Positions 24,453 to 39,908 of a DNA stretch of 64,000 bases are shown in pieces. The notes below the pieces were generated by a model. The model did no database searches and was not told the origin of the DNA. It was given only the letters and a program-made list of their open reading frames with translations. This DNA comes from Methylovorus glucosotrophus (GTDB lineage: Bacteria > Pseudomonadota > Gammaproteobacteria > Burkholderiales > Methylophilaceae). Every line of letters begins with the position of its first letter. Position 1 is the stretch's first letter. Made by a program: the position numbers and the translations under genes. Where the stretch lies: the NCBI RefSeq assembly GCF_009858335.1, contig NZ_VMSE01000002.1, forward strand, positions 62,001 through 126,000, in the 5' to 3' direction.

Positions 24453-25262
24453 TTAACTCCAATGCTTTTGATGGGCCTGCCGCGCGCCCCATTGCTGAAT
24501 GATCTCCTGCAACTGCCGCAAGCCATGTTGAATCAGGCTAGGGCCGGGCTGCAGAATATCCGCTGATTTTATCTCACGCAGCCAGCCCTGCTGCACGGCG
24601 GGGATAGTATCCCACCCCGGCCGCGCCATCACTTGTTCCGGCTGAAATTTTTTACCGCACCACGAGCCGATGATGATATCCGGCTGCCGCTCCACCACCT
24701 GCTGCGGGTCCGCAATAATCCGGTCCTTGGCGGAGGGAAACTGCGCCAGCTCGGCAAAGGCATCCTCGCCCCCCGCCAATGCAATCAGCTCGCCCACCCA
24801 GCGTATGCCGCTCATCATGGGCGCATCCCATTCCTCAAAATACACCCGCGGCTTGCGCGGCAGATAATCCGCCGTCTCACGCACCGCATCCATCTCCTGC
24901 TGCAAGCGCGCCACCAGCGCCTGTGCCTCGGCGGCCTTATCCACCAACACACCCAGGCTCAAGATCATCTGCAACACCTGCGCCAGCGAGCGCTGGTTAT
25001 ACACATGTACCTCCACCCCCGCCCGTATCAGCGCCGCCGCAATATCCGCCTGCAGGTTGGAAAAGCCAATCACCAGATCCGGCTCCAGCGCCAATATCTT
25101 GTCCAGCTTGGCACTGGTAAACGCTGAAACCTTGGGTTTCTCGCGCCGCGCCGCCGCTGGCCGTGTGGTAAAGCCGGAAATCCCGACAATACGATCCTGC
25201 GCGCCCAGAAGATAAAGCGTTTCAACGGTTTCGGTAGTGAGGCAGACGATGCGGTGGTACAT
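24453..25262 (-). CDS. BtuF-like cobalamin-binding protein without a signal peptide
   Basis: A 269-residue class III substrate-binding-protein fold. IVCLTTETVETLYLLGAQDRIVG and LEPDLVIGFSN are the N-lobe signatures, and YFEEWDAPMMSGIRWVGEL belongs to the C-lobe. It resembles BtuF, the periplasmic B12 carrier, but the only sensible start, MYHRIVCL at 25262, leaves no signal peptide; upstream in-frame sequence is not hydrophobic. It may be cytoplasmic. No BtuC or BtuD is encoded in this window, while two solitary BtuM permeases are. It heads a minus-strand operon with cobU and the S4 gene. A handover role for incoming corrinoid is inference. Confidence 0.75.
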   Translation of the reverse strand: MYHRIVCLTTETVETLYLLGAQDRIVGISGFTTRPAAARREKPKVSAFTSAKLDKILALEPDLVIGFSNLQADIAAALIRAGVEVHVYNQRSLAQVLQMILSLGVLVDKAAEAQALVARLQQEMDAVRETADYLPRKPRVYFEEWDAPMMSGIRWVGELIALAGGEDAFAELAQFPSAKDRIIADPQQVVERQPDIIIGSWCGKKFQPEQVMARPGWDTIPAVQQGWLREIKSADILQPGPSLIQHGLRQLQEIIQQWGARQAHQKHWS

Positions 25263-25525: not shown

Positions 25526-26062
25526 ATGTTTTGTTCTAAATGTGGAGAGAAAAACCAGGAATTTGCCAGCTTTTGTTCTGCGTGTGGTACCCAGCTGAAT
25601 TCGACGTTTCAGGATCCTCAATCCCAGAGTTATGGAGGATTTTGGTACCGGACTATTGCGTTTTTGATCGACAATATTGTGATCGGTTTAGGAAGTGTTG
25701 TTCTGCTGGTCGGCATGTTCTATGGTTTATTCATCGGTAGTTCAGCCTCCGAGGAGGAAAACGTATTTTTATACGAAGTCATGGCCTATCTTCTGAATAT
25801 TCTGGTGACCTGGCTTTACTTCACCGTCTTTGAAGCATCAGCATGGCAGGCAACACCGGGCAAACGGATGTTGGGGCTAAGAGTGACGGATGCCAGCGGC
25901 AAACGCCTCGGAATGGGCCGTGCTAATGCCCGCTATTGGGCCAAATTGCTTTCCTGCCTGTTGCTTGGTATTGGATTTCTCATGGTTGCCTTCACCAGCA
26001 AAAAACAGGGCTTGCATGACCTGATCGCACGTACTTATGTGTTGAAGACGGAGAGTGCCTGA
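25526..26062 (+). CDS. Zinc-ribbon and RDD-domain membrane protein
   Basis: A 178-residue protein. The N-terminus MFCSKCGEKNQEFASFCSACG is a four-cysteine zinc ribbon. An RDD domain follows with YRTIAFLIDNIVIGLG (Arg and Asp in the first helix), a second helix around residues 85-105, then WQATPGKRMLGLRVTD and KKQGLHDLIARTYVL. Three to four transmembrane segments are expected. Function in the family is unclear, and roles in ion transport or stress have been proposed. AGGGAG precedes the ATG. It is divergent from the BtuF-like operon and convergent with bluB; no link to either is evident. Confidence 0.85.
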   Translation: MFCSKCGEKNQEFASFCSACGTQLNSTFQDPQSQSYGGFWYRTIAFLIDNIVIGLGSVVLLVGMFYGLFIGSSASEEENVFLYEVMAYLLNILVTWLYFTVFEASAWQATPGKRMLGLRVTDASGKRLGMGRANARYWAKLLSCLLLGIGFLMVAFTSKKQGLHDLIARTYVLKTESA

Positions 26063-26080: not shown

Positions 26081-26731
26081 TTATGCTTTTTCATCCCATT
26101 GGTTTTGCATCAGCATCTCACTCAAGGGCTTCGCCTCTGCCCATCCCTCCTCAATCAGCATGGGCTGCGCGTAAAACATGGGCACATGGCCCAGGCATAG
26201 CACGGCGACCGGCTTCGCGCCTTCTGGCATGTTGAGCAGTCTGGCGAGTTGCTCGGGGTCGAAGATAGAGACCCAGCCCATGCCGAGGCCTTCGGCGCGG
26301 GCGGCGAGCCAGATGTTCTGGATGGCGCAGGAGACGGAGGCTAAGTCCATCTCGGGCAGGGTGCGGCGGCCGAAGACGTAGCGTTCGCGGCCATCGCACA
26401 GCGCGGCGACGATGACTTCGCCGCATTGCAGTATGCCTTCTACTTTCAGGCGTAAAAATTCGGCTTCGCGTTCGCCCAGGGCATGCGCGGTTTGCTGGCG
26501 CTCTTGCTCCACCAGGGCGTGTATCTGCTGGCGTAAGGCGGACTGAGTAATGCGGATGAAGCGCCAGGGTTGCATGAGACCGACGCTGGGGGCGTGGTGC
26601 GCGGCGTTGAGCAGGCGTTGCAGGGTGGCGGGGTCTACCGGGTCTGGCAAAAAATGGCGCATGTCGCGCCGCTCGGCGATGGCGCGGTAGATGGCGGCGC
26701 GTTCTTCATCGCTGTAACGAAAGTCGCTCAT
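26081..26731 (-). CDS. bluB: 5,6-dimethylbenzimidazole synthase
   Basis: A 216-residue BluB of the nitroreductase fold, which cannibalises reduced FMN with O2 to form dimethylbenzimidazole, the lower ligand of B12. Signatures are the N-terminal YRAIAERRDMRHFLPDPV, NAAHHAPSVGLMQPWRFI, VSCAIQNIWLAARAEGLGMGWVS and VAVLCLGHV. The start codon overlaps the stop of the DUF2149 gene (ATGA), so it is the last gene of the long corrinoid run cobO-cobB-cobN-like-TolQ-like-DUF2149-bluB. Its presence indicates an aerobic route to the lower ligand used by CobT. Confidence 0.94.
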   Translation of the reverse strand: MSDFRYSDEERAAIYRAIAERRDMRHFLPDPVDPATLQRLLNAAHHAPSVGLMQPWRFIRITQSALRQQIHALVEQERQQTAHALGEREAEFLRLKVEGILQCGEVIVAALCDGRERYVFGRRTLPEMDLASVSCAIQNIWLAARAEGLGMGWVSIFDPEQLARLLNMPEGAKPVAVLCLGHVPMFYAQPMLIEEGWAEAKPLSEMLMQNQWDEKA

Positions 26732-27111
26732 TTTGCGGTTCCTTGCGGTGAGGCTGAGGGTTGAGTGGTGGCGGATGGGTTGGCTTGCTCAATCAGCAGC
26801 AGTTTGCCGGTTTTTTCATCGCGGTAGACCTGGCCGACGGATTGATAACCGCTGCCGGGGTTGCCGGAAACACTGGGTGGCGCGGCGATTTCGCGGCCGC
26901 GCTCCAGTTCCTTGGCGGGTTTGATCATGGCCTGGCCACCGGCGCTGAGCGCGGCGAGCAGGCCGCAGGCGAATACCAGCATGACATCGACCAGATTGAC
27001 CAGGCTGGCGCGTGGGTCTTCATCGTCATGGTCAAAGCGGCTGTGCAGGCGGCGTTTGGCCGGGCGGGATGCAGCGGCGGGTTCCGTATTTATAGTAGGG
27101 CTTGTTTTCAT
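26728..27111 (-). CDS. DUF2149-family TolR/ExbD-like single-pass membrane protein
   Basis: A 127-residue protein. After a basic N-terminal tail comes FDHDDEDPRASLVNLVDVMLVFACGLLAAL near residues 26-56, a helix whose leading Asp in VNLVDVMLVF resembles the proton-channel Asp of TolR and ExbD. A periplasmic segment with the conserved GQVYRDEKTGKLLLIEQ follows. This is the DUF2149 architecture, commonly found beside a MotA/TolQ protein and a CobN-like gene. It starts 9 nt after the TolQ-like gene, with AAGG upstream. With that partner it probably forms a proton-driven motor acting on the exported CobN-like protein; this is inference from gene order. Confidence 0.8.
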   Translation of the reverse strand: MKTSPTINTEPAAASRPAKRRLHSRFDHDDEDPRASLVNLVDVMLVFACGLLAALSAGGQAMIKPAKELERGREIAAPPSVSGNPGSGYQSVGQVYRDEKTGKLLLIEQANPSATTQPSASPQGTAK

Positions 27112-27120
27112 GATAGGCCT

Positions 27121-27549
27121 TCAGCTTTCCAGCGATTCCAGCACATCTTCATACCAGCGGCGGCGCAGCTTGCCGATGACGAGGCCGGCAATACCGGCAA
27201 TTAAGCCAAGTACGGTGGCATCAAACGCGGTGGTGACGGCTTGCGCCAGTTGCGCCGGGTTGCCTTGACCCAGCGCGGCGAGGCCGGGCCCGAGGGGGAT
27301 AATGGTGGCCATCAGCCCCAGCATGGGCGGAATGCGCGCCAGCAGATCGGCGCGTTCCAGCCGGTGGCGGGCGGTTTTGATCACGGCATCGCTGGCCGAC
27401 TGGCGCATCTGGCGCAGGCCAAACAGCCGCTCGCCGATGGCAATGCCGGATTCCAGCACAGCGAAGGCGACCGAGGCGATCAGAATGGCGATCACCGGCG
27501 TGAGCAGGCTGGTAATGGCCGCGTGCAGATTGTTCATGTCAAACAGCAT
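27121..27549 (-). CDS. MotA/TolQ/ExbB-type proton channel protein
   Basis: A 142-residue membrane protein, shorter than TolQ or ExbB. A first helix runs at residues 13-32 (VIAILIASVAFAVLESG), a cytoplasmic stretch follows, then the diagnostic ARIPPMLGLMATIIPLGPGLAALGQGNPAQLAQAV and TTAFDATVLGLIAGIAGLVIG, the TolQ/MotA core helices. AAAAGGA precedes the ATG by eight bases. It is in a minus-strand operon directly after the exported CobN-like gene (99 nt) and before DUF2149. By analogy with ExbB-ExbD it should convert proton motive force into movement of a periplasmic partner. Confidence 0.85.
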   Translation of the reverse strand: MLFDMNNLHAAITSLLTPVIAILIASVAFAVLESGIAIGERLFGLRQMRQSASDAVIKTARHRLERADLLARIPPMLGLMATIIPLGPGLAALGQGNPAQLAQAVTTAFDATVLGLIAGIAGLVIGKLRRRWYEDVLESLES

Positions 27550-27648
27550 AAATCGTCCTTTTTACAATGTGATGCCGGGATGGCTGCCATGGTGATGACG
27601 CATCCTGCAATGCGGGGTAGTCATCGTCAGCGTTGTATATCCCACCGA

Positions 27649-30600
27649 TCAAGCCTGCGGTTGCTTGCGCATGCCCAGCCAGATACCCAGACCCAGCGCA
27701 GGCAGCAGCGCCAGCAACCACCACCCGAGATGCAATTGCACGGATTTCACCGCGACTTCATACATGGTGGGTGCGGCTTGCACCGGCGCCGGAGGTGTTT
27801 TGGCAGCGGGCGCCGGTTTTTGCGCGGCCTTGCTGGCCGGCTTGTTGGCGTTCACTGGCTCGGGTTCTGGTGTCGCATCCGGCAGACGCGGAGCGTTGGC
27901 CTCAGCCTGTGCAGTGGGGCCATAGGTATTCAGGCCGTCCCCGCGCGCTTTGGATAATACCTGCTGCAAGGCTTGGTTATCCTGGCTGCTGAGGTGGCCG
28001 GCGAGCCACGACCACATGGGGTGATTGGGCGCGGTGTGACCGCTGCCGGGCAGGCCGTTTTTGCTGACTAGTTGTGTGAGCTGGCTGCCGAGCTGGCGCA
28101 CGGTGGCGTCATCGGCATGCCAGTAGCCTTTTTGCGCGGCAACCAGCATGATCGCCAGCATCTGCGCCTTTACATGGGCGTTGTGCTTGTCTTCCAGGAA
28201 TTTATCCAGCCCCAGCCCGAGGCCATCGTCCACATACACGCGCTTCACTTCGTCCCAGGCCCAGTCCTTGATGATATCGGGCCGGGTGACTTGCCAGCCC
28301 CACAGGTTTTCCATGAACTCGGTGCCCATGGTGCGCGCGCCGGCATAGCCATGATCCATCAGCGGGCGTATCCAGTTCGGGTTCAGGTAGCGGCCGCGCA
28401 TTTCCATCAGCAGGGCGGTTTCCAGCGGATCGTCGCTGACGTTATTGGGATCGCTGTGATTGAGAATGCGCGCCGCCGGACGCTGGCCGGTGACCTGCTC
28501 AGTAGCCAGCGAGAGGCCGCCCAGATAATCAAACGCATCGTTGTTATCCATCAGGCCATACAGGTTGGATGCGCGTCCATGGTAGGTGTTGGCAATGCTG
28601 CCCAGCGCGGTGGAAAACACAGCGTGCGCGGGCTGGCCTTGGGCATCCAGCCCATAGGCATGGCCCATGCGGGTGAGGTAAGCGTTGCCCAGTTCGCTGC
28701 GGTCTTTCCAGCTGCCGGAGCGCTCGGTGAGGCGGTTGATGCCGGTGCCATAGGCGCCGGGGGCATCGCCAAAGATACGCCAGGCGGCTTCACGTCCGGC
28801 TTGCGCCAGCGGCATACCCTGGGTTGCCAGTGCCTGGGTGCGGCGCAGCCAATGCAGTGCCACGCCATTGCTCTCCAGCGATTCACCGGCTTCCTGCCGG
28901 GCTTCGCCCAGCGGAGTCAGCGCGGCATCCAGCGCATCATTGAGTTCAGGGTGCTGCTGGCGTATGCGCGTTGCCGAGGCCGCGAGCGCCATGCGGCCAG
29001 CGGTGTCTATCCACTGCATCAGGTTGGGGTAAAGGTCACGAAACAGCCCCGAGGTGGTGACGATGACATCGTGCCGCGCCACGCCGGGGGTGAGCTGCAT
29101 TTTTTGCACAATGCCGCGCGCATTCCACTCCGGCTCGGTGCCCATCAGCCGCAGAATAAAGCTCACGATCACGCCTTCATCGCGCACCGCATCGGAGGCC
29201 CAGAGAATCACGCCTTCACTATCCTGGATGCTGTCGCGCTGCTTGACCTTGTCGGCCATGGCGGCGCCCATCTGAAAGCCCAGGCGCGTGGGCAAGACAT
29301 CGCCATCCAGCGCATGAAAATTGCGGCCAGTGGGCAATGATTCTGGCGAACGCAGCGGGTCGTTGCCTTTGCCCGGCGCAATAAACCCGCCATCCAGCGC
29401 ATGCAAAAAGGCATGCATTTCCAGCCCCGGCGAGGCGGCAAGTGCATCGCGCGTGGCCTCACTCACCTTGTGCTCCTGCCCGCGGCCCATGGAGTTCAGC
29501 ATCAGTTGCAAGGACGACTCCGACCAGGGGCGGCCGAAGATATGCAGGCCATGCGGCATGAACTTCTCCTGCAGCTTGGTCAGGTAATGGCCGACTTCAT
29601 GTGCCAGCAAATCATCGTCCGTCTGTTCAAAGCCGATGCCGCGCACCTGCAGCACATCGGCCATGCTGGCTTCCAGCTCCGAGCGCAGTTGCAGGGCTTC
29701 TACCAGCCGCCGCATTTCACGGGCGGCTTCGATTTTCATGGTGTCCGAGCTGGAGGATTCGTAGGTTTCCACTACCTGCCGCAGTTCCAGCAAGCGGTCA
29801 TACAGCGGCGTGGCGGTGAGCGGTGGCGTCAGGTGATCTATCATCACCGCCAGCCCGCGCCGCTTGGATTGCGTGCCTTCGCCCACGCCATCGACGATAT
29901 ACGGATAAATGCCGGGCAGATCGCCCGCGATCAGGCGCGAGTAGTCATTGGCCGAGAGGCCCACGGCCTTGCCGGGCAGGAATTCATAGGTGGAATGGCG
30001 GCCAATGTGCACCAGCGCATCAGCACCGAAATCGGCTTGCAGCCAGTGGTAAAAACCCAGGTACTGATGCGGTGGCGGAATGGTGGTGTTGGCATGCAGC
30101 AATTCTTCATCCACCTCCCAGCCGCGTGGCGGTTGCGGGCCGATAAAAATATTGCCGAAGCGGATGCCGGGAATCAGCATGTTGCCGTTATGCACCATGA
30201 CCTTGCCCGGTGGCTGACCCCAGCCGCGCAGGCCTTCAATACCCAGCGCGGCGAGGCGGGATTTGTCCTCAGTGAGCTTGTTGCAGTCGGTGTGTTGATC
30301 CAGGCATTGCTCGTAGCCGGTTTGCAGGGCGGCAAGCTGGCGCAAGGCTTCATTGCGCTTGGGATGGTCCGCGCCTTCCAGCAGGTGGCACAGCTCATGC
30401 ATGGCTTTATCGAGGCGCGTGCGGCCAATGGCGATTTCTCCGGCTTGTTGCGCGGCGACGATATCTGCGTGCAATCTTCCGAGCGGGCCTTCCGTCATCT
30501 CGCCACGCACGGCGGCGGGCAGGGTGGCAAACCAGCGCTGGTAACTTGCCGCATCCATATTGGTGACGTGCTGCTGCATCTCGGCCAGGGCGCCGTTGTC

Positions 30601-31995
30601 TTCCGGCAGGTTAACGCCGCGTTGCTGCATGATATCGAGCAGCGCCTCGGGCGAGGCTGGCAATTCGCCGGTGGTGTAGCCCGCCTGTTGCAGCGCATGC
30701 AGCATGTCAAACAGGCTGGCGGGCACATCAAGATTATCGGCCCCGATATTCTGGCGGCCTGGCGGGTGGTTGTAGTAAATCAGCGCGACTTTCTTGTCGG
30801 CATTCGGTTTGTCGCGCAAGGCTTGCCAACGTATAGCCCGCGTCACCAGCGAGCCGATTTCGGCGGGTAGCATCTGTGGCAGCTTGAGTTCCACACCGGT
30901 TTGTTTGTCCAGCGTGGCGGGGCCAGCGGACGCGACCACGATAGGTTGCGAGCTGCCCTGAATCTCCGGCATGGCCACGCGGTATTGCACCGAGTTGATC
31001 GGCAGGCCATCCTCCGAAAGCTGCCAGGCCGAGGCGGTGCGGTCGGTGAGCCGTATGGCCTTGTAGACCGGCACATCGAGCTGCGACAGCAGGCTGGTGA
31101 CGGCCTCACGCCCTTCGGCGGCGCCGACCACAAAATCCTGCAGCACTACCAGCCCGGCAGGCTTGGCTGGGGCTACCAGGGTTTTCAGCTGGGCGATGGC
31201 ATCGCGCGAGCTTTCGCCCCAGCGCGCCATCAGCACCAGGCATTGCAGTTTGCGGCGTGCGCTGTCCTGGCAGATGGCATCAGCGGGTTGCGGGTCGCTG
31301 GTATTGAGGTCGAGCACCACCAGTACCGGTGCGGCATTCAGACGCAGGGCCGTTGGCGCGATTTCCTTGCCCTGCAAGCGGTAAACCATGGCAGGCTGCG
31401 GCTTGGGTAATGGCGCTGTGCCACGCGGGTGTAGCCAGTAGCGGATGAAGGCGGCCTGGTTTTCACTGCCACCGGCTTGCCACAGATCATGCATGGCCAG
31501 CCATTGTGCCGCCGCCGGATGGTTGCGCGCGGCGCTGGCAATCTCCGGGGCGAGATTGTTCTGGGTGAGAGTCAGCGCTGCCGCATCCTTGAAGCGGCTG
31601 ACGGGTTCGCCAGCAAAGCGGCTGCGCATGGAAAGCCCGCTTTCGCCATTGAGTGCGATGAAGTTGCGGATATCGCTACTGCCAGCGCGATCCAGCCGGA
31701 CTTGCAGCCGTTGCGCGGCTTCGCCATAGACGGCGATGGCCATCACGGCATCGGCATTTTTCAGCCAGCGATCCAGCGTTTTGTCGTCCGCCGCCAGCAC
31801 TTGCGATTGCGTGCGCAGCAGGATTTTATCCTTGCCGTTATTGGCAAGTACCACGTGCGCCGCATTGGCTACTGCCGGTGCGGTGCGATCAGAGACGATG
31901 CCGAACAGCGTGGCAGCGGAAGCAGGCGGGCTGGAAAGGGTGAATGCCGCAAGCAGCAGGCCGCCAAGAGTGTAAGCAGGCAGCCGGGCCATCAT
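27649..31995 (-). CDS. Exported, C-terminally anchored CobN-family chelatase-like protein
   Basis: A 1448-residue member of the CobN/ChlH/BchH large-chelatase family. Unlike cytosolic CobN it begins with a signal peptide (AYTLGGLLLAAFTLSSPP then ASAAT). It ends with a Pro/Ala-rich linker of about 70 residues and one transmembrane helix, LHLGWWLLALLPALGLGIWL, plus a short basic tail. The main body, roughly residues 130-1330, carries CobN segments such as YYNHPPGRQNIGADNLDVP, VHIGRHSTYEFLPGK and FGAALGSIAN-like stretches. It should face the periplasm. Neither CobS nor CobT chelatase partners are here; TolQ-like and DUF2149 genes follow instead. Related exported CobN proteins have been proposed to dechelate or handle metallo-tetrapyrroles (HmuS type). 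The start overlaps the cobB stop. Confidence 0.88.
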   Translation of the reverse strand: MMARLPAYTLGGLLLAAFTLSSPPASAATLFGIVSDRTAPAVANAAHVVLANNGKDKILLRTQSQVLAADDKTLDRWLKNADAVMAIAVYGEAAQRLQVRLDRAGSSDIRNFIALNGESGLSMRSRFAGEPVSRFKDAAALTLTQNNLAPEIASAARNHPAAAQWLAMHDLWQAGGSENQAAFIRYWLHPRGTAPLPKPQPAMVYRLQGKEIAPTALRLNAAPVLVVLDLNTSDPQPADAICQDSARRKLQCLVLMARWGESSRDAIAQLKTLVAPAKPAGLVVLQDFVVGAAEGREAVTSLLSQLDVPVYKAIRLTDRTASAWQLSEDGLPINSVQYRVAMPEIQGSSQPIVVASAGPATLDKQTGVELKLPQMLPAEIGSLVTRAIRWQALRDKPNADKKVALIYYNHPPGRQNIGADNLDVPASLFDMLHALQQAGYTTGELPASPEALLDIMQQRGVNLPEDNGALAEMQQHVTNMDAASYQRWFATLPAAVRGEMTEGPLGRLHADIVAAQQAGEIAIGRTRLDKAMHELCHLLEGADHPKRNEALRQLAALQTGYEQCLDQHTDCNKLTEDKSRLAALGIEGLRGWGQPPGKVMVHNGNMLIPGIRFGNIFIGPQPPRGWEVDEELLHANTTIPPPHQYLGFYHWLQADFGADALVHIGRHSTYEFLPGKAVGLSANDYSRLIAGDLPGIYPYIVDGVGEGTQSKRRGLAVMIDHLTPPLTATPLYDRLLELRQVVETYESSSSDTMKIEAAREMRRLVEALQLRSELEASMADVLQVRGIGFEQTDDDLLAHEVGHYLTKLQEKFMPHGLHIFGRPWSESSLQLMLNSMGRGQEHKVSEATRDALAASPGLEMHAFLHALDGGFIAPGKGNDPLRSPESLPTGRNFHALDGDVLPTRLGFQMGAAMADKVKQRDSIQDSEGVILWASDAVRDEGVIVSFILRLMGTEPEWNARGIVQKMQLTPGVARHDVIVTTSGLFRDLYPNLMQWIDTAGRMALAASATRIRQQHPELNDALDAALTPLGEARQEAGESLESNGVALHWLRRTQALATQGMPLAQAGREAAWRIFGDAPGAYGTGINRLTERSGSWKDRSELGNAYLTRMGHAYGLDAQGQPAHAVFSTALGSIANTYHGRASNLYGLMDNNDAFDYLGGLSLATEQVTGQRPAARILNHSDPNNVSDDPLETALLMEMRGRYLNPNWIRPLMDHGYAGARTMGTEFMENLWGWQVTRPDIIKDWAWDEVKRVYVDDGLGLGLDKFLEDKHNAHVKAQMLAIMLVAAQKGYWHADDATVRQLGSQLTQLVSKNGLPGSGHTAPNHPMWSWLAGHLSSQDNQALQQVLSKARGDGLNTYGPTAQAEANAPRLPDATPEPEPVNANKPASKAAQKPAPAAKTPPAPVQAAPTMYEVAVKSVQLHLGWWLLALLPALGLGIWLGMRKQPQA

Positions 31996-33281
31996 GCGGT
32001 GAAGAGGGCGGCGGCCGCTTGTGGGTTGGAGGGGAAGTAAAAGTGCAAATAGCTCGCGGTGAGGCTGCCATGGCGGTAGATGGCTTCGCCGGGTTTTCCG
32101 CGCTGGGTGATGGCGCTTTGCATAGGTGGCAAGGTGGTTTCCATGCGGGAGTAATGAAAGGTGTGGGCGTTGAGGCGCCCATCGGCAAAGTCGGCAAACT
32201 GCACGCCCAGCCCCTGAAAGCGCGGCTGCATGCTGGTGCTGCCAGGCAGCAGGCCAAACATCGGCGTGGTATCAATCGCGTCACTGAGTGCCATCATGCC
32301 GCCGCATTCGGCCAGCATGGGCATGCCCGCTTGCCAGGCTAGTTGCAATGCCTCGCGCATGGCGGCATTGGCGCTGAGTGTGGCGGCATGTATCTCGGGG
32401 TAGCCGCCAGGAAACCACAGGGCATCGGCGGCGGGCAGCGCCTGATCATGTAGCGGTGAGAAAAATTCGAGGCGGGCGCCCAACTCGCGCAGGCAATCCA
32501 GATTGGCAGGATAAATAAAACAGAAGGCCGCATCGCGCGCGATGGCGATGGTTTTGCCCGCCAGCGGACGGAAGCTATCGGCTGGGGTGTGGGCTGGCGC
32601 AGCGAAGTCGGTAGCCGGGGGTAGCGGCAAGATGCCATCGGGCTGCGAGGCCAGCAGGGCCTGGGCTGCAGCGCTGATGCGTTGCTCCAGATCCTCAATC
32701 TCGTCGGCGCGATGCAGGCCGAGGTGGCGTTCTGGCAATGAAAAGTTGTCGGATTTTGGCAAGGCGCCTAGCCATGGAATATCGGCTGGCAGGCTCTGAC
32801 GCAATAAATCCGCATGGTGGCTGCTACCGGTGCGGTTGCCGATGACACCTGCCGGAATCAGCGCCGGGCGATAGCGATAAAGCCCGGCTGCCAGTGGGCC
32901 AAAAGTCTGCGCCATGCCAGCAGCATCTACCGTCAGGGCGACGGGGATACGAAAGCGCTCGGCGATATCGGCGCTGGATGGCGCACCATCGTATAGCCCC
33001 ATTACGCCTTCAATGATGATCACATCGGCATCGAGCGCGGCCTGATGCAGCCTGGCCTGGATATCGGCCTCGCCATTCATGGCCAGGTCGAGGTTGTAAA
33101 CGGGATGACCGGTGGCGGTCGCCAGGATCATGGGGTCAAGAAAGTCGGGGCCGCATTTGAAACCACGCACCCGCAAGCCACTATCGCGCCAGGCGCGGGC
33201 CAGGGCGGCGGTAACCAGTGTTTTGCCCTGATTGGATGCCGGGGCGGAAACCAGCAGGGCCGGGCAGGCCGCCGCTACCAC
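31992..33281 (-). CDS. cobB: Cobyrinic acid a,c-diamide synthase
   Basis: A 429-residue CobB/CbiA. The N-terminal ATP-binding domain has SAPASNQGKTLVTAALARA, GFKCGPDFLDPMI and VIIEGVMGLYDG. The C-terminal glutamine-amidotransferase-like domain has the Cys in MPMLAECGGMMAL near residue 325 and HTFHYSRMET. It amidates the a and c carboxylates of (hydrogeno)cobyrinic acid. It overlaps cobO by 7 nt upstream and the CobN-like gene by 4 nt downstream, so all three are translationally coupled. Whether the substrate holds cobalt already cannot be told from sequence. Confidence 0.94.
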   Translation of the reverse strand: MVAAACPALLVSAPASNQGKTLVTAALARAWRDSGLRVRGFKCGPDFLDPMILATATGHPVYNLDLAMNGEADIQARLHQAALDADVIIIEGVMGLYDGAPSSADIAERFRIPVALTVDAAGMAQTFGPLAAGLYRYRPALIPAGVIGNRTGSSHHADLLRQSLPADIPWLGALPKSDNFSLPERHLGLHRADEIEDLEQRISAAAQALLASQPDGILPLPPATDFAAPAHTPADSFRPLAGKTIAIARDAAFCFIYPANLDCLRELGARLEFFSPLHDQALPAADALWFPGGYPEIHAATLSANAAMREALQLAWQAGMPMLAECGGMMALSDAIDTTPMFGLLPGSTSMQPRFQGLGVQFADFADGRLNAHTFHYSRMETTLPPMQSAITQRGKPGEAIYRHGSLTASYLHFYFPSNPQAAAALFTA

Positions 33282-33886
33282 TCCACCCCCGGCATGGCTT
33301 GCACGCCATTTTTAAAGGCATGCTTCACCATATTCATTTCGGTGACGGTATCGGCCTGCTCTATCAGCTCTGGCGGTGCCGCCCGGCCGGTGACGACCAC
33401 GTGCTGCATGGCGGGCCGCGCGGCAATGTCCGCCAGCACATCGGCCAGCTCCAGGTAATGGTATTTGAGCACGATATTGAGCTCGTCCAGAATCACCACG
33501 CCGACACTGCTATCTTGCATGGCTTGCTGCGCCTGGGCCCAGCCTTGTTTGGCAGCGGCAATATCGCGATCGCGATTTTGCGTTTCCCAGGTAAAGCCTT
33601 CGCCCATGACATGCCAGGTAACATTTGGCTGGTTGCGGTAAAAGGCCTCTTCGCCGGTGTCGGAACGGCCTTTGACAAACTGCACCACCACCGCGCGCTG
33701 CCCATGCCCCAGCGCGCGTGCTAGCAGACCAAACGCTGCGGTGGATTTGCCTTTGCCATTGCCGGTATTCACCAGCAACAGGCCGCGCTCTACCCGGGCG
33801 GCCTCAATCTTGGCATCGACCACTGCTTTTTTGCGCGCCATGCGATCGGCATGGCGCTGGTTCAGCCCCAGGTCTTGCTCACTCAT
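33275..33886 (-). CDS. cobO: Corrinoid adenosyltransferase
   Basis: A 203-residue CobO/BtuR/CobA-type ATP:cob(I)alamin adenosyltransferase. The P-loop is in LLLVNTGNGKGKSTAAFGLL, and VVILDELNIVLKYHYL and VVVTGRAAPPELIEQADTVTEM are further signatures. It attaches the 5'-deoxyadenosyl group to cob(I)yrinic acid diamide or to imported corrinoids. It is coupled on both sides: 4 nt overlap with btuM upstream and 7 nt with cobB downstream. That arrangement puts adenosylation immediately after import. Confidence 0.96.
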   Translation of the reverse strand: MSEQDLGLNQRHADRMARKKAVVDAKIEAARVERGLLLVNTGNGKGKSTAAFGLLARALGHGQRAVVVQFVKGRSDTGEEAFYRNQPNVTWHVMGEGFTWETQNRDRDIAAAKQGWAQAQQAMQDSSVGVVILDELNIVLKYHYLELADVLADIAARPAMQHVVVTGRAAPPELIEQADTVTEMNMVKHAFKNGVQAMPGVEW

Positions 33887-34452
33887 GCGGCTTGCTTGGC
33901 ATCAGCGCGCACCAGCTTGATCACGATGTGGATGATGGCGGCGGTGGCGATGTAAAACGCCAGGGTTTGCAGGGAAGATGGATAGTACTTGGTCAGGCGT
34001 GGCAGGAACTCCATCAGTGATGGATCGGCATAGCGACCAGAGAAGAAGTAGAAACCACCGCTGGAGAACAGGTGGCAGATAAAGCTACTGACCAGCACAG
34101 CGCCGCTCAATGTGAACAGGGATTTGATGGCAAAGCTGTAGTGCTTGGCGAACCAGCGACCGCCCAGCCACAGGGTGCCGTAAGCCGGTACCAGGAAGCC
34201 ATAAGCCGGGCTGGTGCAGAAATCACTGCCGCCACTGGCGCTGACTGAGGCGAAATCGAGACCGGCGGCGAGGCCCATGAAAACCGGAAATACCCACATT
34301 GGGCGCAGATAAACGCCCAGCATGAAAAAGACGGCCCAGGATGCGCTGGGCAGATGGTTGACGCTGGCAAAGTGATTGCCACGCGTCATGATCATGAGTG
34401 CTGCGAGCAGTAAGCCGACGATAAGCTGTTGCTGTTTGGTGAGGTTAAGCAT
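33883..34452 (-). CDS. btuM: BtuM-type solitary cobalamin permease, copy 1
   Basis: A 189-residue membrane protein starting MLNLTKQQQL (an ATG at 34494 lacks support). About six hydrophobic helices are present. The loop SGGSDFCTSPAYGFLVPAYG contains Cys79. BtuM proteins are ECF S-component relatives that import B12 without an ECF module; in Thiobacillus denitrificans BtuM a conserved cysteine near residue 80 ligates cobalt and supports decyanation (recalled, not checked). The position of Cys79 and the 47% or so visible similarity in this motif to copy 2 support the call. It follows btuB by 120 nt and overlaps cobO, linking outer-membrane uptake, inner-membrane import and adenosylation. Confidence 0.82.
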   Translation of the reverse strand: MLNLTKQQQLIVGLLLAALMIMTRGNHFASVNHLPSASWAVFFMLGVYLRPMWVFPVFMGLAAGLDFASVSASGGSDFCTSPAYGFLVPAYGTLWLGGRWFAKHYSFAIKSLFTLSGAVLVSSFICHLFSSGGFYFFSGRYADPSLMEFLPRLTKYYPSSLQTLAFYIATAAIIHIVIKLVRADAKQAA

Positions 34453-34487
34453 GAGAGATTGCCTTCTGGTTAAAGTATTTAAGAAAC

Positions 34488-34519
34488 GGAACATTTCAAT
34501 ATTTTAAATGAAATGTTCC
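34488..34519 (-). terminator. Inverted repeat between btuB copy 1 and btuM copy 1
   Basis: GGAACATTTCA (34488-34498) and TGAAATGTTCC (34509-34519) form a perfect 11-bp stem with a 10-nt loop. On the minus strand it is followed by the T-rich GTTTCTTAAATAC. It may attenuate transcription between the receptor and the permease. Confidence 0.5.
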
Positions 34520-34572: not shown

Positions 34573-36447
34573 TTAAAGCGCAGGCGAATAACGCAGGGTG
34601 ACAAACAGATTAGTACCAAAGGTTCCGTAGTTCTGTGCCAACTCATACTCGCGATCAAACAGATTGTTGACGCGCGCATTCACTGACCAGTCCTGGTTGA
34701 TGCGGTAATTGGTAAACACATTTACCAGGGTGTAACCGCTCAAGCGATTGGTGTTGGCAGCATCATCAAAACGATGGCCGGAGCTTTCGATTTCACTGCC
34801 AAATTGCCAGTCGCCCCACGTTTGGGTTAAGCCCAGCGCGCCATGCTCACGGGCGCGGCGTGGCAGCCAGTTGCCGGTATTGGCATCTTCCGCGCGCTGG
34901 AAGTCAGCATTGCCATACACTTGTGTGCGGTCCCAGTTGCCGTTATAGCTCAGCGTCAATCCTTTGAGCTCGGCTTCGTTAACATTGAGCGGGGTTAATA
35001 CTGTCCCGACGCGAGTGTTGACGATCAGGTCATCGACATTGTTTTTGTAGTAAATGGCACCCAGACGATGATGGCCTTGCGTATATTGCAGACCCACTTC
35101 GCGGTTCTCGGCTTCTTCGGGCTTGAGGTTGGCATTGCCAACAAATCCAGATTGCAGAGGGCTATATAGCTGATTGAATGTAGGCGCACTGAACGCGGTG
35201 CCATAGGAGGCGTGTGCACGCCATTCCGCGTTGATCTGGTAACCATAGGCCAGACTGCCGGTGGTTTTATCCCCAAATTGCGAATTCTGATCCAGGCGAG
35301 CGTTGGCCTGAAATTGATGACTGCCGAGTTTGTACTGCCAGCCCGTCAGATATGACTGAATATTGCGTTCATCCTTGGCAAATGTGGTGGTTCCTTCCAC
35401 TTTTTGCTCGCGACGCTCGGCACCCAGGGTAAATAAGCCTATATCCGTGGTGATGTCGTTTTGCCATGCATATTGCGTCTGCGTGGTCTTGAATAGCGAA
35501 CGGACTTTCAGGGTATTGGCTGTGTTGGGGCTGAATGACTCCAGATTGTCCTCACTCTGGCCGACGCTGAAATTGCTCAGCCAGTTTTCGGTGAACTGAT
35601 TTTTGCTGTAAATCGAGACCAGGTTTTGACGGCGGTTTCCATAAAAATCAAAGCGGTTTCTAGGGTTGGCGAGGGGGGTAATGTTGCCGCCATCGTAGTG
35701 ATTGGTGCCTTCGTTCAACCAACCTTGTATGCCGAGTTCGTGGTTTTCGCTGAAGTGCTGGGCCAGCTTGAGTGAGACATTGCGGTTGCTGTAACCATCG
35801 TCGTCCGGGTTATACGTGATCAGGGTTTTATTCGCAATTGCAGAGACGCCATTGGTGGAACTGGCGCCGGCCTGCACGCTGAAACTGGTGTTTTCTACGC
35901 GTCCAGCAATTCCTGCCGTGGCGCTGCTGCTGCCATAGGTGCCCAGGCCCACGCTCGCATTCAGGCGCGGTTTGCCTTTGCCGGATTTGGTAAAAATCTG
36001 GATGACGCCGCCGATGGCGTCTGCGCCATACAAGCCGCTGGCCGGGCCGCGCAGGATTTCGACACGCTCAATCTGGTCGAGTGGAATGTTTTCAAGTGCT
36101 GTAGTGCCTGTCGTGGCAGAGTTCACACGCAGACCATCAATCAGCACCACAGTATGTGTGGCGTTGGCACCACGAATAAAGACATCAGCAGATTTGCCGG
36201 TGCCGCCATTCTGTACGATCTGCACGCCGGGCTGCATGGCGAGCAGTTGCACCAGGGTCGTCTGACCGGCTTTCTGAATCTGATCCTGGGTAATCACGGA
36301 AATATCGCCCAGCGCATCGCTGACTTTTTGTTCGGTGCGGGCGGCGGTGACGACGATGTCTGACAGCGTGGTATCGGCCGCCAGTGAATTGAATGAATGC
36401 GCAAACAAAGGCGCAAACGCGATGGCGAGTGCAGAACGGTGAAGCAT
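34573..36447 (-). CDS. btuB: TonB-dependent cobalamin receptor BtuB, copy 1
   Basis: A 624-residue receptor. A signal peptide (MLHRSALAIAFAPLFAHSFN to SLAAD) is followed by the TonB box DIVVTAART, a plug with VFIRGANATHTVVLIDGLRV and VEILRGPASGLYGADAIGGV, and a 22-strand-type barrel ending NLFVTLRYSPAL. The plug motifs GPASxLYGADAIGGVIQI are typical of BtuB. Size matches E. coli BtuB (614). AAGGA lies 8 nt before the ATG. A cobalamin riboswitch at 36560-36745 precedes it, so expression should fall when adenosylcobalamin is plentiful. The last residues are not aromatic, which is unusual for a barrel protein. btuM copy 1 follows. Confidence 0.93.
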   Translation of the reverse strand: MLHRSALAIAFAPLFAHSFNSLAADTTLSDIVVTAARTEQKVSDALGDISVITQDQIQKAGQTTLVQLLAMQPGVQIVQNGGTGKSADVFIRGANATHTVVLIDGLRVNSATTGTTALENIPLDQIERVEILRGPASGLYGADAIGGVIQIFTKSGKGKPRLNASVGLGTYGSSSATAGIAGRVENTSFSVQAGASSTNGVSAIANKTLITYNPDDDGYSNRNVSLKLAQHFSENHELGIQGWLNEGTNHYDGGNITPLANPRNRFDFYGNRRQNLVSIYSKNQFTENWLSNFSVGQSEDNLESFSPNTANTLKVRSLFKTTQTQYAWQNDITTDIGLFTLGAERREQKVEGTTTFAKDERNIQSYLTGWQYKLGSHQFQANARLDQNSQFGDKTTGSLAYGYQINAEWRAHASYGTAFSAPTFNQLYSPLQSGFVGNANLKPEEAENREVGLQYTQGHHRLGAIYYKNNVDDLIVNTRVGTVLTPLNVNEAELKGLTLSYNGNWDRTQVYGNADFQRAEDANTGNWLPRRAREHGALGLTQTWGDWQFGSEIESSGHRFDDAANTNRLSGYTLVNVFTNYRINQDWSVNARVNNLFDREYELAQNYGTFGTNLFVTLRYSPAL

Positions 36448-36559
36448 GGAATTTTCCTTATGCTGTTCCCGGCAACGCTTGCGCCTGTGGCGTGGTAATC
36501 AAGACAGAGTGGAGAACAGCTGAAGCGAGTCTGGTGACGCTGCAACCCCGCAGCAATCC

Positions 36560-36745
36560 CTTGAATCATCAGGCCGGTCTCCGGGCTCATACGTTTTGTT
36601 AATCCGCCTTCCCATGGCTATGCACAGTGGCGTGTAGGATCAACCACACGTAATTACCGTTGCGGGGGCAGCACAGGGTTTGTTTGTGAAAACGCACCTG
36701 TTTCCCAGTTTCACCTCATCGCAGAATAGCGACTTCGGCACCTGA
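36560..36745 (-). promoter_or_regulatory. Cobalamin riboswitch upstream of btuB copy 1
   Basis: On the minus strand the full class is visible: 5' P1 strand TCAGGTGCC, GGGAAACAGGTG, CTGCCCCCGCAACGGTAA near 36655-36675, ACGCCACTG, GGGAAGGCGG, then the B12 box GAGCCCGGAGACCGGCCTGA at 36568-36590. P1 closes as TCAGG with CCTGA. It should reduce btuB-btuM expression on binding adenosylcobalamin. Confidence 0.95.
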
Positions 36746-36867
36746 ACAACTGCGTGAATTATATGCGATGTCGCCGAAAATAAACAGGCGGGGAAATGCG
36801 GTTGAGGAAAAGCGAGGAACGAATGTTAGGCGTTTGGAGATACACTTTTTGCCAGCTTGTATGCATG

Positions 36868-36938: not shown

Positions 36939-37502
36939 TTAAAGCGATATGCGGCTGGGAGCGGCGATACGCAATTTGAATAAACGGGCTGCCAGCCAAC
37001 CAATCGCCACATACATCAACGCGTAGCCTACATAGGGCATGTAATACTTGGCTACGCGGACGCTAAATTCGGTAATGGTCAGGCTATCCACTTTGTCTGA
37101 AAACGCAAACCAGAATGCATTGGATACCACAAAAGCAATGCTGGTGGAGCCCCAGGCAAACAATGCAAATGGCAAGATGGAAAATGGCTTGTCACTATCC
37201 GCCAGTAACCGTCCCGCGCCCCATACCAGGCCATAGGTGGGAATCAGGCCCCAGTAACCAGGCGACATGCAGTAATCCGACACGCCTTGCCAGCCCATGG
37301 CATACCCATCCATGCCAAATGCCGCAATCAGCGCCAGCCCCAGCCAACCGGTGTTCGTAATCAGCAAGCCGCCCATGAACAGCACCGCCAGCGTGGCGTC
37401 AGGCAGGTAAACATCATTGCCGAAATGCTGGGTGCGAGTGGCGATGATCAAAAGAATCAGGATAGCGCCCACCCAGAAAGACTGCTTGTTGTGCTGCGGC
37501 AT
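36939..37502 (-). CDS. btuM: BtuM-type solitary cobalamin permease, copy 2
   Basis: A 187-residue membrane protein with about six hydrophobic helices, homologous to copy 1. The shared loop here reads WQGVSDYCMSPGYWGLIPTYG with Cys78 at the position equivalent to Cys79; SD-x-C-x-SP-x-Y-x3-P-x-YG is common to both. Elsewhere the two have diverged strongly, so the duplication is old or one copy was acquired. It lies 98 nt after btuB copy 2, behind a terminator hairpin. As for copy 1, B12 import without an ECF ATPase is inferred from the BtuM family. Confidence 0.82.
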   Translation of the reverse strand: MPQHNKQSFWVGAILILLIIATRTQHFGNDVYLPDATLAVLFMGGLLITNTGWLGLALIAAFGMDGYAMGWQGVSDYCMSPGYWGLIPTYGLVWGAGRLLADSDKPFSILPFALFAWGSTSIAFVVSNAFWFAFSDKVDSLTITEFSVRVAKYYMPYVGYALMYVAIGWLAARLFKLRIAAPSRISL

Positions 37503-37599: not shown

Positions 37600-39462
37600 T
37601 TATTTTGAAGGCGAGTAACGTACACTGATGAAGAGATTGGTCCCAGGGGTACCGTACGGTGGTGCAGTAGGGGTGAAGGTCGTAGCGGTTGTTACCAAGG
37701 TGTAGTCTTTATCCAGCAAATTATTCAGTCTTGCATTCAATGACCAGTCTTCATTGATTTTGTATTTTCCAGTGAGATTAACCAGGGTGTAACCAGCCAT
37801 AACGATTTGGTTCTCAGGATCATTGAAGCGCTTGCCACTGGCGATTACTTCTGTCCCGATCTCAAACTTTCCCCATACCTGCCCCAGCCAGAGAGAGCCA
37901 TATTGACGTGCCCGACGGGCAATCACTTTTCCGGTATCTTCATTCCGTGGATCTTGTACATCTGCGCTTGCTCGCAGGTGATAATTTTCTATCCAGCCCT
38001 CATAGCTTAATGTGGCGCCTTTAATTTTGGCGGAGCCTACATTGCTGGGAAAATCTGTCAGGGTGCCATTTGTACCCACCAGCAGGTTGTCAATTTCGTT
38101 ATGGTAGGCCGTCAAGCTGATACGGTGATGTCCTTGATCGTAGACAACGGCCGCTTCGGTATTGCGTGATGTTTCAGGTTTAAGGTTGGGGTTGCCTTGA
38201 TAGGTATAGCCAAATCCATAATCCTGAAATGGAAGATATAAATCATTAAAGGTCGGTGCCCGGAAGGCTGTACCAAAGCTTCCATTCACGCGCCAGTAAT
38301 CATTAAGGCGATACCCATATCCTATGTTCCCGGTGGTATGTTCCCCAAATTGGGAGTTATTGTCTCGGCGTAAGCCAAACTTGAATGCATGGGCATTTTT
38401 CTCAAGCAGATAGCTTGCAAGGTAGCCATTATTAAACCGTTTGTCGACGGTGTAGCTGCCATTCCCATCGACCTTGTCTTCTAGTCTGTCATAGGCAAGA
38501 GTTAATGTGCCCAATGGCAAGCGCAAGTCATTCTGCCAATAGTGTTGGCGCTGCTTGGTGCGCAACGAGCTGACGCCGAAACTGCCGACGCTGTAAAGAT
38601 CGTCCTGGCTTTCGCCTATGCGGAACTGGCTCTGCCAGTATTCGGTGATTTTGTTTTTGCTGGTAAGGGCAAAGCTTTGTTGACGCAAATCCTGATTGGC
38701 AGGAAAGTCATTACCGTCAAAGTCATAGTGACCATTTGATGTGTATACCTGAGCACCAATTTCATGACCTTCTGCCAGAGTGTGGCTGATGTTGCCATTA
38801 AAGCTCAGATTGCGAAAACCATCGTGATCTTGATCTCGTCCGGATTGGGTCCTGAATGACGAAATACCATCTGTGGTGAGCGACGCGACGCTCGCAGCAT
38901 AGCGAGTATCGCCCACGGAGCCACTCAAGGCCGCAGATGCCTGTTGTGTGTTGTTGCTGCCATAACCTGCAGATGCTGACAGACGGGGTTCGCCTTTGCC
39001 CTGTCGGGTAAAAATCTGTATTACACCGCCGATGGCATCTGCTCCATACAGGCTTGATGCCGGGCCACGCAGGATTTCAATGCGTTCAATTTGCTCAGGC
39101 AGAATTTGGCTCAGCGTGGTGGTTCCTGTTGTCGCTGAGCTGACTCGCATGCCATCAATCATTACGACTACCGCTTGTGAACCTGTGCCGCGCAGGTGGA
39201 TATTGGTGGTGGCGCCCAGGCCGCCATTGGATTCTATTTGAATCCCGGGTTGGGTGCTTAGCAGTTCTGCCAAAGTGGATTGACCGGCGCGCTCAATTTC
39301 TTCGCGGGTAATGACGCTGACGTCTGCCAATACATTCTCGCGGGATTCTGCGATGCGACTAGCAGTGACCACGACTTCATCGGTGTAAATGGAGGTGGCC
39401 TCCGCGTATGCGCCCGTCGTAAACAGCAAGCCTATCGTACTTGCCAGTATGGTTTTGTTCAT
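37600..39462 (-). CDS. btuB: TonB-dependent cobalamin receptor BtuB, copy 2
   Basis: A 620-residue receptor. A signal peptide (MNKTILASTIGLLFTTGAYA) is followed by the TonB box DEVVVTASR, a plug with IHLRGTGSQAVVVMIDGMRV and VEILRGPASSLYGADAIGGV, and a barrel ending NLFISVRYSPSK. It parallels copy 1 throughout but differs in many loops, for example the substrate-facing DGNDFPANQDLRQQ region, so the two may prefer different corrinoids. Upstream sits its own cobalamin riboswitch. The terminal residues are again non-aromatic. A terminator directly follows the stop codon, then btuM copy 2. Confidence 0.92.
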   Translation of the reverse strand: MNKTILASTIGLLFTTGAYAEATSIYTDEVVVTASRIAESRENVLADVSVITREEIERAGQSTLAELLSTQPGIQIESNGGLGATTNIHLRGTGSQAVVVMIDGMRVSSATTGTTTLSQILPEQIERIEILRGPASSLYGADAIGGVIQIFTRQGKGEPRLSASAGYGSNNTQQASAALSGSVGDTRYAASVASLTTDGISSFRTQSGRDQDHDGFRNLSFNGNISHTLAEGHEIGAQVYTSNGHYDFDGNDFPANQDLRQQSFALTSKNKITEYWQSQFRIGESQDDLYSVGSFGVSSLRTKQRQHYWQNDLRLPLGTLTLAYDRLEDKVDGNGSYTVDKRFNNGYLASYLLEKNAHAFKFGLRRDNNSQFGEHTTGNIGYGYRLNDYWRVNGSFGTAFRAPTFNDLYLPFQDYGFGYTYQGNPNLKPETSRNTEAAVVYDQGHHRISLTAYHNEIDNLLVGTNGTLTDFPSNVGSAKIKGATLSYEGWIENYHLRASADVQDPRNEDTGKVIARRARQYGSLWLGQVWGKFEIGTEVIASGKRFNDPENQIVMAGYTLVNLTGKYKINEDWSLNARLNNLLDKDYTLVTTATTFTPTAPPYGTPGTNLFISVRYSPSK

Positions 39463-39617
39463 GAATACCCCTTTGTGTGCATGCGACCCCGCATGCGAGA
39501 AATAAAAAGGGAATACCGTGAGGGAAGCTGTTGAATCTATCCGGAACGAAGGCGCAATATGAAATTAAGTTATCTGCGATTCGCTGCGAAAACCGTCACC
39601 CCGCGGTATTGCCTGCT

Positions 39618-39815
39618 TGTGAGCTATCGGGCCGGTCTCCGGGCTTATACGTTTTGTTCATTCGCCTTCCCATGCATGTGCACAGTGGCTTGTTGAATGA
39701 ACCGCACGTAATTACCGTTGCGGGGGCAGCACAGGAATAGTTGCTCGATTAATCGTCAACGCACCTGTTTCCCAGTTTCACCCGGTTTGCAGAGCAGCAA
39801 ATCGGGCACCAGATA
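39618..39815 (-). promoter_or_regulatory. Cobalamin riboswitch upstream of btuB copy 2
   Basis: On the minus strand: GGTGCCCGAT, GGGAAACAGGTGCG, CTGCCCCCGCAACGGTAA near 39711-39728, CCACTGTGCA, GGGAAGGCG and the B12 box AAGCCCGGAGACCGGCCCGA at 39628-39647. The core is nearly identical to the riboswitch of copy 1; the peripheral stems differ. Confidence 0.95.
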
Positions 39816-39908
39816 ACGTGCATAGGATTATACGGGATGCAAAAAATTTCACCAAAGCGAGATTAAAACTTAACGTGTTGTAATACTTTCAAAAATGCTC
39901 GTTAGCAG

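Follow-up and report, generated by a model that had tools for sequence, protein, structure and literature searches.

An exported CobN-like protein encoded with a TolQ-like/DUF2149 pair in a B12 operon: a putative periplasmic class I chelatase for corrinoids

A 64,000-nucleotide stretch of DNA from the methanol-using bacterium Methylovorus glucosotrophus (assembly GCF_009858335.1, contig NZ_VMSE01000002.1, positions 62,001–126,000; hereafter the window) contains an operon in which a cobalamin riboswitch heads the genes for an exported CobN-like protein, a short TolQ-like protein and a DUF2149 protein. The CobN-like protein carries export and anchor signals in its sequence and the active-site residues of its superfamily, and it belongs to a riboswitch-linked clade whose genomes have no ChlI-type partners. 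These features are consistent with a putative corrinoid chelatase of class I, located in the periplasm, whose CobS/CobT would be replaced by a proton motive force (PMF) motor built from the TolQ-like and DUF2149 proteins, a proposal for which the evidence is evenly poised.

The CobN-like protein and its two small partners

The CobN-like protein (27649..31995, minus strand) consists of 1448 residues and matches PF02514 with an E-value of 2.3e-246. Its N-terminus (MMARLPAYTLGGLLLAAFTLSSPPASAA) is signal-peptide-like by eye and by hydropathy, and its C-terminus forms a single hydrophobic helix (residues 1423–1441) followed by RK, in agreement with the original prediction of a CobN-family protein with both elements. 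The NCBIfam CobN equivalog models all score the protein under their cut-offs despite the PF02514 match, and the PDB ranking places HmuS first (9d26, E-value 8.2e-108), followed by ChlH and then CobN. The residues H663, H667, E671, E706, R712 and R713 are kept superfamily-wide, and H667 and E706, which correspond to HmuS His538 and Glu577, are present in all 13 members of the clade that contains the window protein. An ordinary cytosolic CobN is ruled out by the export signals and by the partners that were not found.

The TolQ-like protein (27121..27549, minus strand; 142 residues) belongs to the MotA/TolQ/ExbB family (PF01618, E-value 1.1e-9) and forms three long helices. Its model has a predicted local distance difference test (pLDDT) value of 91.6, and Foldseek ranks 1–44 are all ExbB/TolQ entries, but these matches are weak (best E-value 0.037). 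The DUF2149 protein (26728..27111, minus strand; 127 residues; PF09919, E-value 3.3e-7) consists of one transmembrane helix (residues 33–58) and a short tail. The helix contains Asp42 inside the motif NLVDVMLVF. All 27 aligned rows, that of the window among them, keep both N39 and D42, which bears out the channel-type Asp noted earlier. An hhalign comparison of DUF2149 with three ExbD-like sequences covers 18 columns (E-value 0.0013, probability 18%), with VDVMLV common to both. This profile likeness is confined to the transmembrane motif and is suggestive only. The literature passages on DUF2149 that were read, from two papers, give no mechanism for it.

Recurrence of the gene set and its link with export

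The gene set recurs across genomes. In a first sample of 274 genomes from the class, the window's included, DUF2149 is found in 18 and PF02514 in 35. All 18 fall within the 35, and in each of them the two genes lie no more than about 5 kb apart (on opposite strands in G066). The 17 other DUF2149 loci and 17 CobN/BchH loci without DUF2149 were fetched for comparison. In every intact CobN-type protein linked to DUF2149 (16/16), the N-terminus is hydrophobic (at least 2.04) and the C-terminus holds a hydrophobic helix (1.60–2.95), whereas both hydrophobic ends are found in none of the 15 intact CobN/BchH proteins without DUF2149, nor is the C-terminal helix (at most 0.51). The difference in both ends is significant (Fisher p 3e-9; Fisher tests were run on counts entered by hand). 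Four loci lie outside the export count: the CobN of G075 is a broken or misassembled 435-residue open frame in mid-contig, that of G104 runs off its contig, and L047 and L049 stand at contig ends.

A crude end rule applied to 81 rows gives a similar picture. Both ends are present in 13/13 rows of the window clade, 36/47 rows of a sister group, 3/3 HmuS rows and the separate loci L138 and L140, compared with 0/16 cytosolic CobN/BchH rows (canonical CobN, 0/10). Open reading frames (ORFs) were called mechanically from the longest start, and the crude N-terminal rule fails in 10 of the 47 sister rows and the C-terminal rule in three.

A second collection comprises the best 80 of at least 562 stretches that encode a DUF2149 relative. 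A TolQ-like ORF is found in all 80 by BLAST and in 79 by profile (the contig end cuts L130), and 74 of the 80 also have a CobN-type gene. Chance juxtaposition is ruled out by this recurrence (18/274 genomes; 74/80 best loci). A strict TolQ/DUF2149–CobN coupling is likewise ruled out as an absolute rule by the 6/80 loci without CobN. Exported CobN, TolQ-like and DUF2149 proteins recur together, and BtuM-like matches are found in just 5/13 loci of the window clade.

Close DUF2149 relatives are found in Methylovorus and Methylobacillus. Planctomycetes, Desulfobacter and a Bacteroidaceae bacterium are among the names shown, and no archaeon is among the 120 names listed. Among 14 control genomes, Methanosarcina acetivorans matches both PF09919 and PF02514, as judged from family matches and not from gene order. 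Viral contigs gave no match to single-protein patterns. One locus of Azonexus hydrophilus (L086) contains two CobN–TolQ–DUF2149 sets on opposite strands, and the GxLGxGKTT GTPase motif (COG0523-like by reading) occurs in ORFs near sister-group sets in L058 (12987–14078) and L059 (2032–3171).

A distinct clade linked to cobalamin genes

Two unrooted trees, one of 81 rows built with FastTree and one of 38 rows built with IQ-TREE in quick mode, show a three-way split: HmuS groups with the sister group, CobN groups with BchH, and the window clade forms the third part (support 100). The window clade comprises 13 loci (the window, L030–L038 and L142–L144). It carries an insertion at approximately residues 503–590, with 166–171 residues in the clade compared with 63–89 in the other 68 rows. 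Within the insertion, all 13 members share His537 and His544, and 12/13 have Glu540. The HELCH sequence in the window's insertion was rejected as a metal site, being not conserved apart from the invariant H537 and H544.

At least two B12 genes lie nearby in 11/13 clade loci compared with 1/102 sister loci (p 1.3e-12); the B12 genes were found with profiles made from the window's own single genes, which favours near relatives, and the sister loci are not all independent, at least four contigs being represented by two loci each (L026/L062, L028/L056, L022/L122 and L080/L153). A cobalamin riboswitch is present in 11/13 clade loci, and in L034, L037 and L038 it is located approximately 85–115 nt upstream of the cobN-like ORF itself. 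L030 is a twelfth B12-linked clade locus, in which DUF2149 is followed by an adjoining gene for the corrinoid remodelling enzyme CbiZ and by a CN-hydrolase gene. In L031 (12346–15743), a thiamine pyrophosphate riboswitch, a TonB receptor and a nicotinamide mononucleotide-transporter-family protein are encoded directly 3' of the clade CobN–TolQ–DUF2149 set.

Among 14 sister loci scanned for riboswitches, L158 is the sole positive. A tandem cobalamin riboswitch also heads the L138 operon on plasmid pGLOV01 of Trichlorobacter lovleyi. L138 and L158 are positioned on other branches of the tree, and the B12 linkage therefore arose, or was kept, more than once. The L138 operon (3065–14955) runs in the order riboswitches, TonB receptor, DUF2162, TolQ, DUF2149, CobN, ExbB, ExbD, TonB and second receptor, with BzaF and CobT genes upstream. 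In the literature searched, no paper on pGLOV01 in connection with corrinoids was found. On a Runella slithyformis plasmid (L140, 3335–11369), a TonB receptor, a membrane protein weakly similar to NicO/DsbD, TolQ, DUF2149 and an exported CobN are encoded inside a hyp (NiFe-hydrogenase maturation) gene cluster, and a nickel version of the system is possible.

AAA+ partners and corrin synthesis in the host genomes

The missing CobS/CobT subunits, originally noted for the operon, are missing genome-wide: the window's genome has no match to CobT or CobS and at most 23.8 bits for ChlI, in a search that did not include ChlD. The ChlI model (TIGR02030) reaches at most 34.3 bits in 13/13 clade genomes, compared with 227–409 bits in 10/10 canonical-CobN genomes. 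The latter values are under the model cut-off of 467, which is exceeded only by the two BchH genomes tested. With the CobS model (TIGR01650), G051 scores 561 bits. The genomes G298, G344 and G387 are outside the PF02514, CbiC and CobT counts.

The window host probably depends on salvage instead of making a corrin ring, because ring-synthesis markers are not matched in its genome: CbiC, CbiX and CbiK gave no match, and CobG none over cut-off. CobB and CobQ, whose substrates are under-amidated corrins, are both present. Over the groups, the ring-synthesis marker CbiC is found in 10/12 canonical-CobN, 1/8 sister, 1/5 BchH-only and 3/10 tested clade genomes.

The three clade genomes with CbiC (G089, G121 and G236) are also the only ones of 31 genomes with CobG over cut-off, the next being G272 (202.7 vs 234.8 bits). 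Their ring-synthesis genes lie within about 15 kb of the exported gene and include CobI and CbiD in all three, and CobH, CobJ, CobM and CbiE in G121 and G236. CbiX and CbiK have no match in these genomes, and each contains a single PF02514 gene, the exported one. A chelatase is required for late cobalt insertion, as stated in a passage of PMC7689651. Late-cobalt clusters in which the exported protein is the sole PF02514 member thus fit insertion or exchange better than removal, and they are the strongest pointer to insertion over removal. A CobW-like GTPase motif is found in none of the fetched G089, G121 and G236 loci and in only 2/17 canonical and BchH loci, and says little.

Operon and neighbouring genes in the window

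The operon is encoded on the minus strand in the order riboswitch, BtuB2, BtuM, CobO, CobB, exported CobN-like, TolQ-like, DUF2149 and BluB, with gaps of 78, -4, -7, -4, 99, 9 and -4 nt from BtuB2 to BluB. The riboswitch (36555..36760, minus strand) scores 95.3 bits. BtuB2 (34573..36447, minus strand) is a BtuB-type TonB-dependent receptor that scores 467.2 bits with TIGR01779, under the cut-off of 599.7. The BtuM-type membrane protein (33883..34494, minus strand) has no Pfam or NCBIfam match, and its sole PDB match is 8c7p (E-value 1.8e-53), a solved structure named 'Cobalamin ABC transporter'. The CobA/CobO corrinoid adenosyltransferase (33275..33886, minus strand) scores over cut-off, as does CobB, the cobyrinic acid a,c-diamide synthase (31992..33281, minus strand; 413.5 bits, cut-off 254), whose gene overlaps the cobN-like start by 4 nt. 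BluB (26081..26731, minus strand), the synthase of the lower ligand dimethylbenzimidazole, scores 267.6 bits with TIGR02476 (cut-off 150), and its gene overlaps the DUF2149 gene by 4 nt.

The operon is preceded by a second riboswitch–BtuB–BtuM cassette, all on the minus strand. It comprises a second cobalamin riboswitch (39613..39828, 105 bits), a second BtuB-type receptor (37600..39462; TIGR01779 462.3 bits, under cut-off) and a second BtuM-type protein (36939..37502; 8c7p, E-value 4.9e-20). The span 36555–39828 thereby shows tandem cassettes with one cobalamin riboswitch each. On the 3' side lie a BtuF-like periplasmic binding protein and, outside the operon proper, CobU (23923–24492, minus strand), CobQ (22167–23669, plus strand), CbiB (21247–22215, minus strand) and CobC/CobD (20274–21254, minus strand), each over a cut-off. 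Between BluB and BtuF, and opposite in strand to its neighbours, is an ORF for a 178-residue membrane-protein-like product with an N-terminal CxxC pair and no NCBIfam match (25526–26062, plus strand). Farther away, an S-adenosylhomocysteine riboswitch (plus strand, within 60788–63621) is positioned ahead of the genes for adenosylhomocysteinase (60961–62370) and methylenetetrahydrofolate reductase (62743–63621).

Comparison with known systems

Among solved structures, HmuS is the closest. HmuS, which accompanies HmuT, HmuU and HmuV in the Bacteroidota hmuYRSTUV operon, resembles the window protein: both are exported, anchored CobN-superfamily proteins, and both operons also hold genes for a DUF2149 protein, a MotA/TolQ/ExbB protein and a TonB receptor. 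The HmuS residues His538 and Glu577 are kept in the window clade. According to the available passages of PMC12583661, HmuS is an NADH-dependent heme de-chelatase that takes iron from heme, and its superfamily holds many clusters of no known function. P. gingivalis HmuS perhaps works in the periplasm, as worded in part of PMC13227078. However, HmuS His1209 and Glu1212 (LSLDHxxEFMGG) are replaced by Asp1153 and Asp1156 in 13/13 clade members. At the head/neck interface, Val/Ile and Asp/Asn/Gly take the places of the heme ligands Met79 and His254, respectively, in 13/13, in a region where the alignment is loose and one of the three HmuS rows has R at position 79. The Met-rich domain IV insertion of HmuS (232–419 residues with 10–34 Met in three rows) corresponds to a clade span of 128–138 residues with 4–6 Met. 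In place of HmuY/HmuR, the window has B12 genes and a cobalamin riboswitch, and its clade is separate, with its own insertion and two invariant His residues. Of the 47 sister rows, 18 have His and 29 have Asp where HmuS has His1209, and three residues further on Glu occurs in 18 rows, Gln in 28 rows and Asp in one; the sister group thus holds two active-site types.

CobN of CobNST and the window protein have in common their Pfam family, their cavity residues, a corrin context and an Asp where HmuS has His1209. Canonical CobN differs in that signal and anchor are both present in 0/10, and its genomes have a ChlI-like gene (10/10), unlike the window's genome. By the features compared, the window protein belongs to neither HmuS nor CobNST.

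A third CobN type, BtuS (Rodionov et al. 2003, cited by Rocha et al.), is described in sections of PMC6460266, in which Rocha et al. give its predicted role as metalloporphyrin salvage. B. fragilis members of this family are predicted there to be exported and membrane-attached, and the terms TolQ, ExbB and riboswitch are absent from that account's main text. P. aeruginosa PA1922–PA1925 likewise combines a TonB receptor, a CobN-like protein, an ExbD-annotated protein and a DUF2149 protein in one operon, but it is zinc-regulated and belongs to the Zur regulon, as compared by description only from portions of PMC9431628 and PMC8456098. The window pair resembles ExbB–ExbD, TolQ–TolR and MotA–MotB in the helices of the TolQ-like protein and in the Asp of the partner's single transmembrane helix. 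It differs in its genetic partner, which is a chelatase-like protein, and in DUF2149, for which no ExbD/TolR domain is recognisable in a poor model. No paper that pairs a B12 chelatase with a TolQ/DUF2149 motor was found in the literature searched, although one may exist elsewhere.

Proposed mechanism and alternatives

In the proposed mechanism, the CobN-like subunit, tethered to the inner membrane by its C-terminal helix, would bind corrinoid that has entered via BtuB. Metal chemistry would take place in the conserved superfamily cavity (His667/Glu706), most likely as cobalt insertion or exchange in metal-free or wrongly metalated corrins, with removal less likely. A proton-driven membrane motor of the TolQ-like and DUF2149 proteins would do the conformational work of cytosolic CobS/CobT or ChlI/ChlD, an ion motor taking the place of an AAA+ protein because no ATP is available in the periplasm. 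The product would pass to BtuM and be trapped and completed by CobO, CobB, CobQ, CbiB and CobU. A PMF-driven periplasmic machine had been suggested originally. Its predicted periplasmic, anchored position, its tie to corrinoids, the dedicated pair and the absence of CobS, CobT and ChlI matches from the window's genome stand, and the drive by the pair and the direction of the reaction are the conditional parts. The narrower form, a PMF-driven periplasmic cobaltochelatase that serves B12 scavengers and supplies the de novo cobalt-insertion step of some bacteria, is tentative and, on balance, doubtful.

Several observations weigh against this mechanism. In L087, L099, L129 and L131 (Cupriavidus/Ralstonia), the pair is not accompanied by a CobN-type gene within the fetched stretch, which covers 10 kb on each side in L087, L129 and L131, and 10 kb upstream and approximately 3.4 kb downstream in L099. 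In all four, an RND-type (efflux) gene is located upstream of the pair, profile-confirmed in L087 and L131. In the two other CobN-less loci, L057 and L059, the pair stands at a contig end. A clade locus from the genus of L030, L031, has no B12 gene nearby. The clade member G143 has a strong CobS match of 491.6 bits (cut-off 558.6) beside a CobT-like gene of 80.5 bits, and G089 has a weak CobS/CobT-like pair (91.3 and 52.9 bits); the AAA+ motor is therefore not absent everywhere in the clade. The G143 pair is located on contig 29 (7297–8971), and the sole PF02514 protein of that genome is the exported one. CbiD, a family named for cobalt-precorrins, is present in all three ring-synthesis clusters, and the late-cobalt label of G089, G121 and G236 consequently rests on CobG and the missing CbiX/CbiK. 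A metal-free corrin made in their cytosol would need transfer to the periplasm, and the mechanism takes metal-free corrin as a natural substrate. Finally, purified HmuS without membrane helices and HmuU/HmuV converts heme with NADH in vitro, according to an excerpt of PMC12583661, so that a related enzyme has no strict need of a motor for removal.

A somewhat unlikely alternative separates the two functions: the TolQ-like/DUF2149 pair would be a specialised energiser of BtuB, similar to ExbB/ExbD, and the CobN-like protein would act on its own in the periplasm, as an enzyme for corrinoids or as a protein that binds them. In the HmuS study, HmuU/HmuV are depicted as energising HmuR (PMC12583661, in part), and a review of P. 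aeruginosa zinc uptake assigns PA1924 as the energiser of a TonB receptor (PMC8456098, in part). The TonB receptor found in 64/74 sister loci with CobN suits this role too and counts against the chelatase motor, as do the four loci with the pair but no CobN, and in L032 a TonB_C protein adjoins BtuB. However, the L138 operon already contains annotated ExbB, ExbD and TonB; by clustering with these, ExbB-, ExbD- and TonB-like ORFs are found near the pair in L058 and ExbB- and ExbD-like ORFs in L067. Both families are matched in Methanosarcina acetivorans, which is not known to have an outer membrane. The DUF2149 fold search matched no ExbD/TolR periplasmic domain, with a poor model (pLDDT 66), a result that counts against a BtuB energiser and against the chelatase motor alike. 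The original suggestion that the machine pulls corrinoid from BtuB is unsupported in that form, given the ExbB–ExbD–TonB set of L138 and the matches in Methanosarcina acetivorans. The CobN-like protein may instead be the client of the pair because L138 has its own ExbB–ExbD–TonB, because Methanosarcina acetivorans matches both families and because CobN export accompanies the pair.

An HmuS-like role, in which the protein, by analogy with HmuS and heme, would strip metal or the upper or lower ligand from imported corrinoids before BtuM, is unlikely. HmuS is the closest solved structure and removes iron from heme (PMC12583661, in part); the cluster's BluB, CobU and CobQ could rebuild a chosen cobamide, and CbiZ adjoins DUF2149 in L030. 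Against these points, Asp replaces the second axial His of HmuS (His1209) throughout the clade, as in CobN, Met79 and His254 are not conserved, and the Met-rich insertion is absent. Cobalt is, moreover, very hard to extract from corrin. Removal of metal or lower ligand, as originally suggested, may still occur, but the location of the protein in three late-cobalt synthesis clusters suits insertion or exchange better.

A non-catalytic corrinoid-binding chaperone between BtuB and BtuM is highly improbable. A large corrin-binding protein could concentrate substrate, and BtuM acts without an energy-coupling factor module, with many BtuM hosts lacking BtuCDF, as reported in passages of PMC6072759. 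However, His667 and Glu706 are kept in 13/13 clade members, and BtuM-like matches in only 5/13 clade loci indicate no fixed association of the CobN-like protein with BtuM. A heme or zinc system lying by chance in a B12 operon is barely credible: relatives are heme-linked (HmuS) or Zur-regulated (PA1922–PA1925; PMC9431628 and PMC8456098, in part), but the protein falls in its own clade, apart from HmuS with the sister group and from CobN/ChlH, and riboswitches and at least two B12 genes each accompany 11/13 clade loci. A heme de-chelatase in particular was rejected in view of His1209, Met79/His254, the Met-rich insertion and the context.

Implications

The partner of CobN and ChlH is an AAA+ ATPase, and the reason for their ATP requirement is not fully understood, as described in part of PMC7689651. 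A clade in which the ATPase is missing and an ion-motor pair is present instead offers a direct way to ask what the energy serves. If the periplasmic chelatase proposal is true, DUF2149 would gain a suggested function, and the assignment of HmuU/HmuV and PA1924 as servants of TonB receptors only would come into question. It would also explain how some late-cobalt B12 producers do without CobNST, and the same motor swap would account for HmuS and the zinc-regulated relatives. The system would then represent a new way of B12 handling, with HmuS and the BtuS proposal as its already known relatives.

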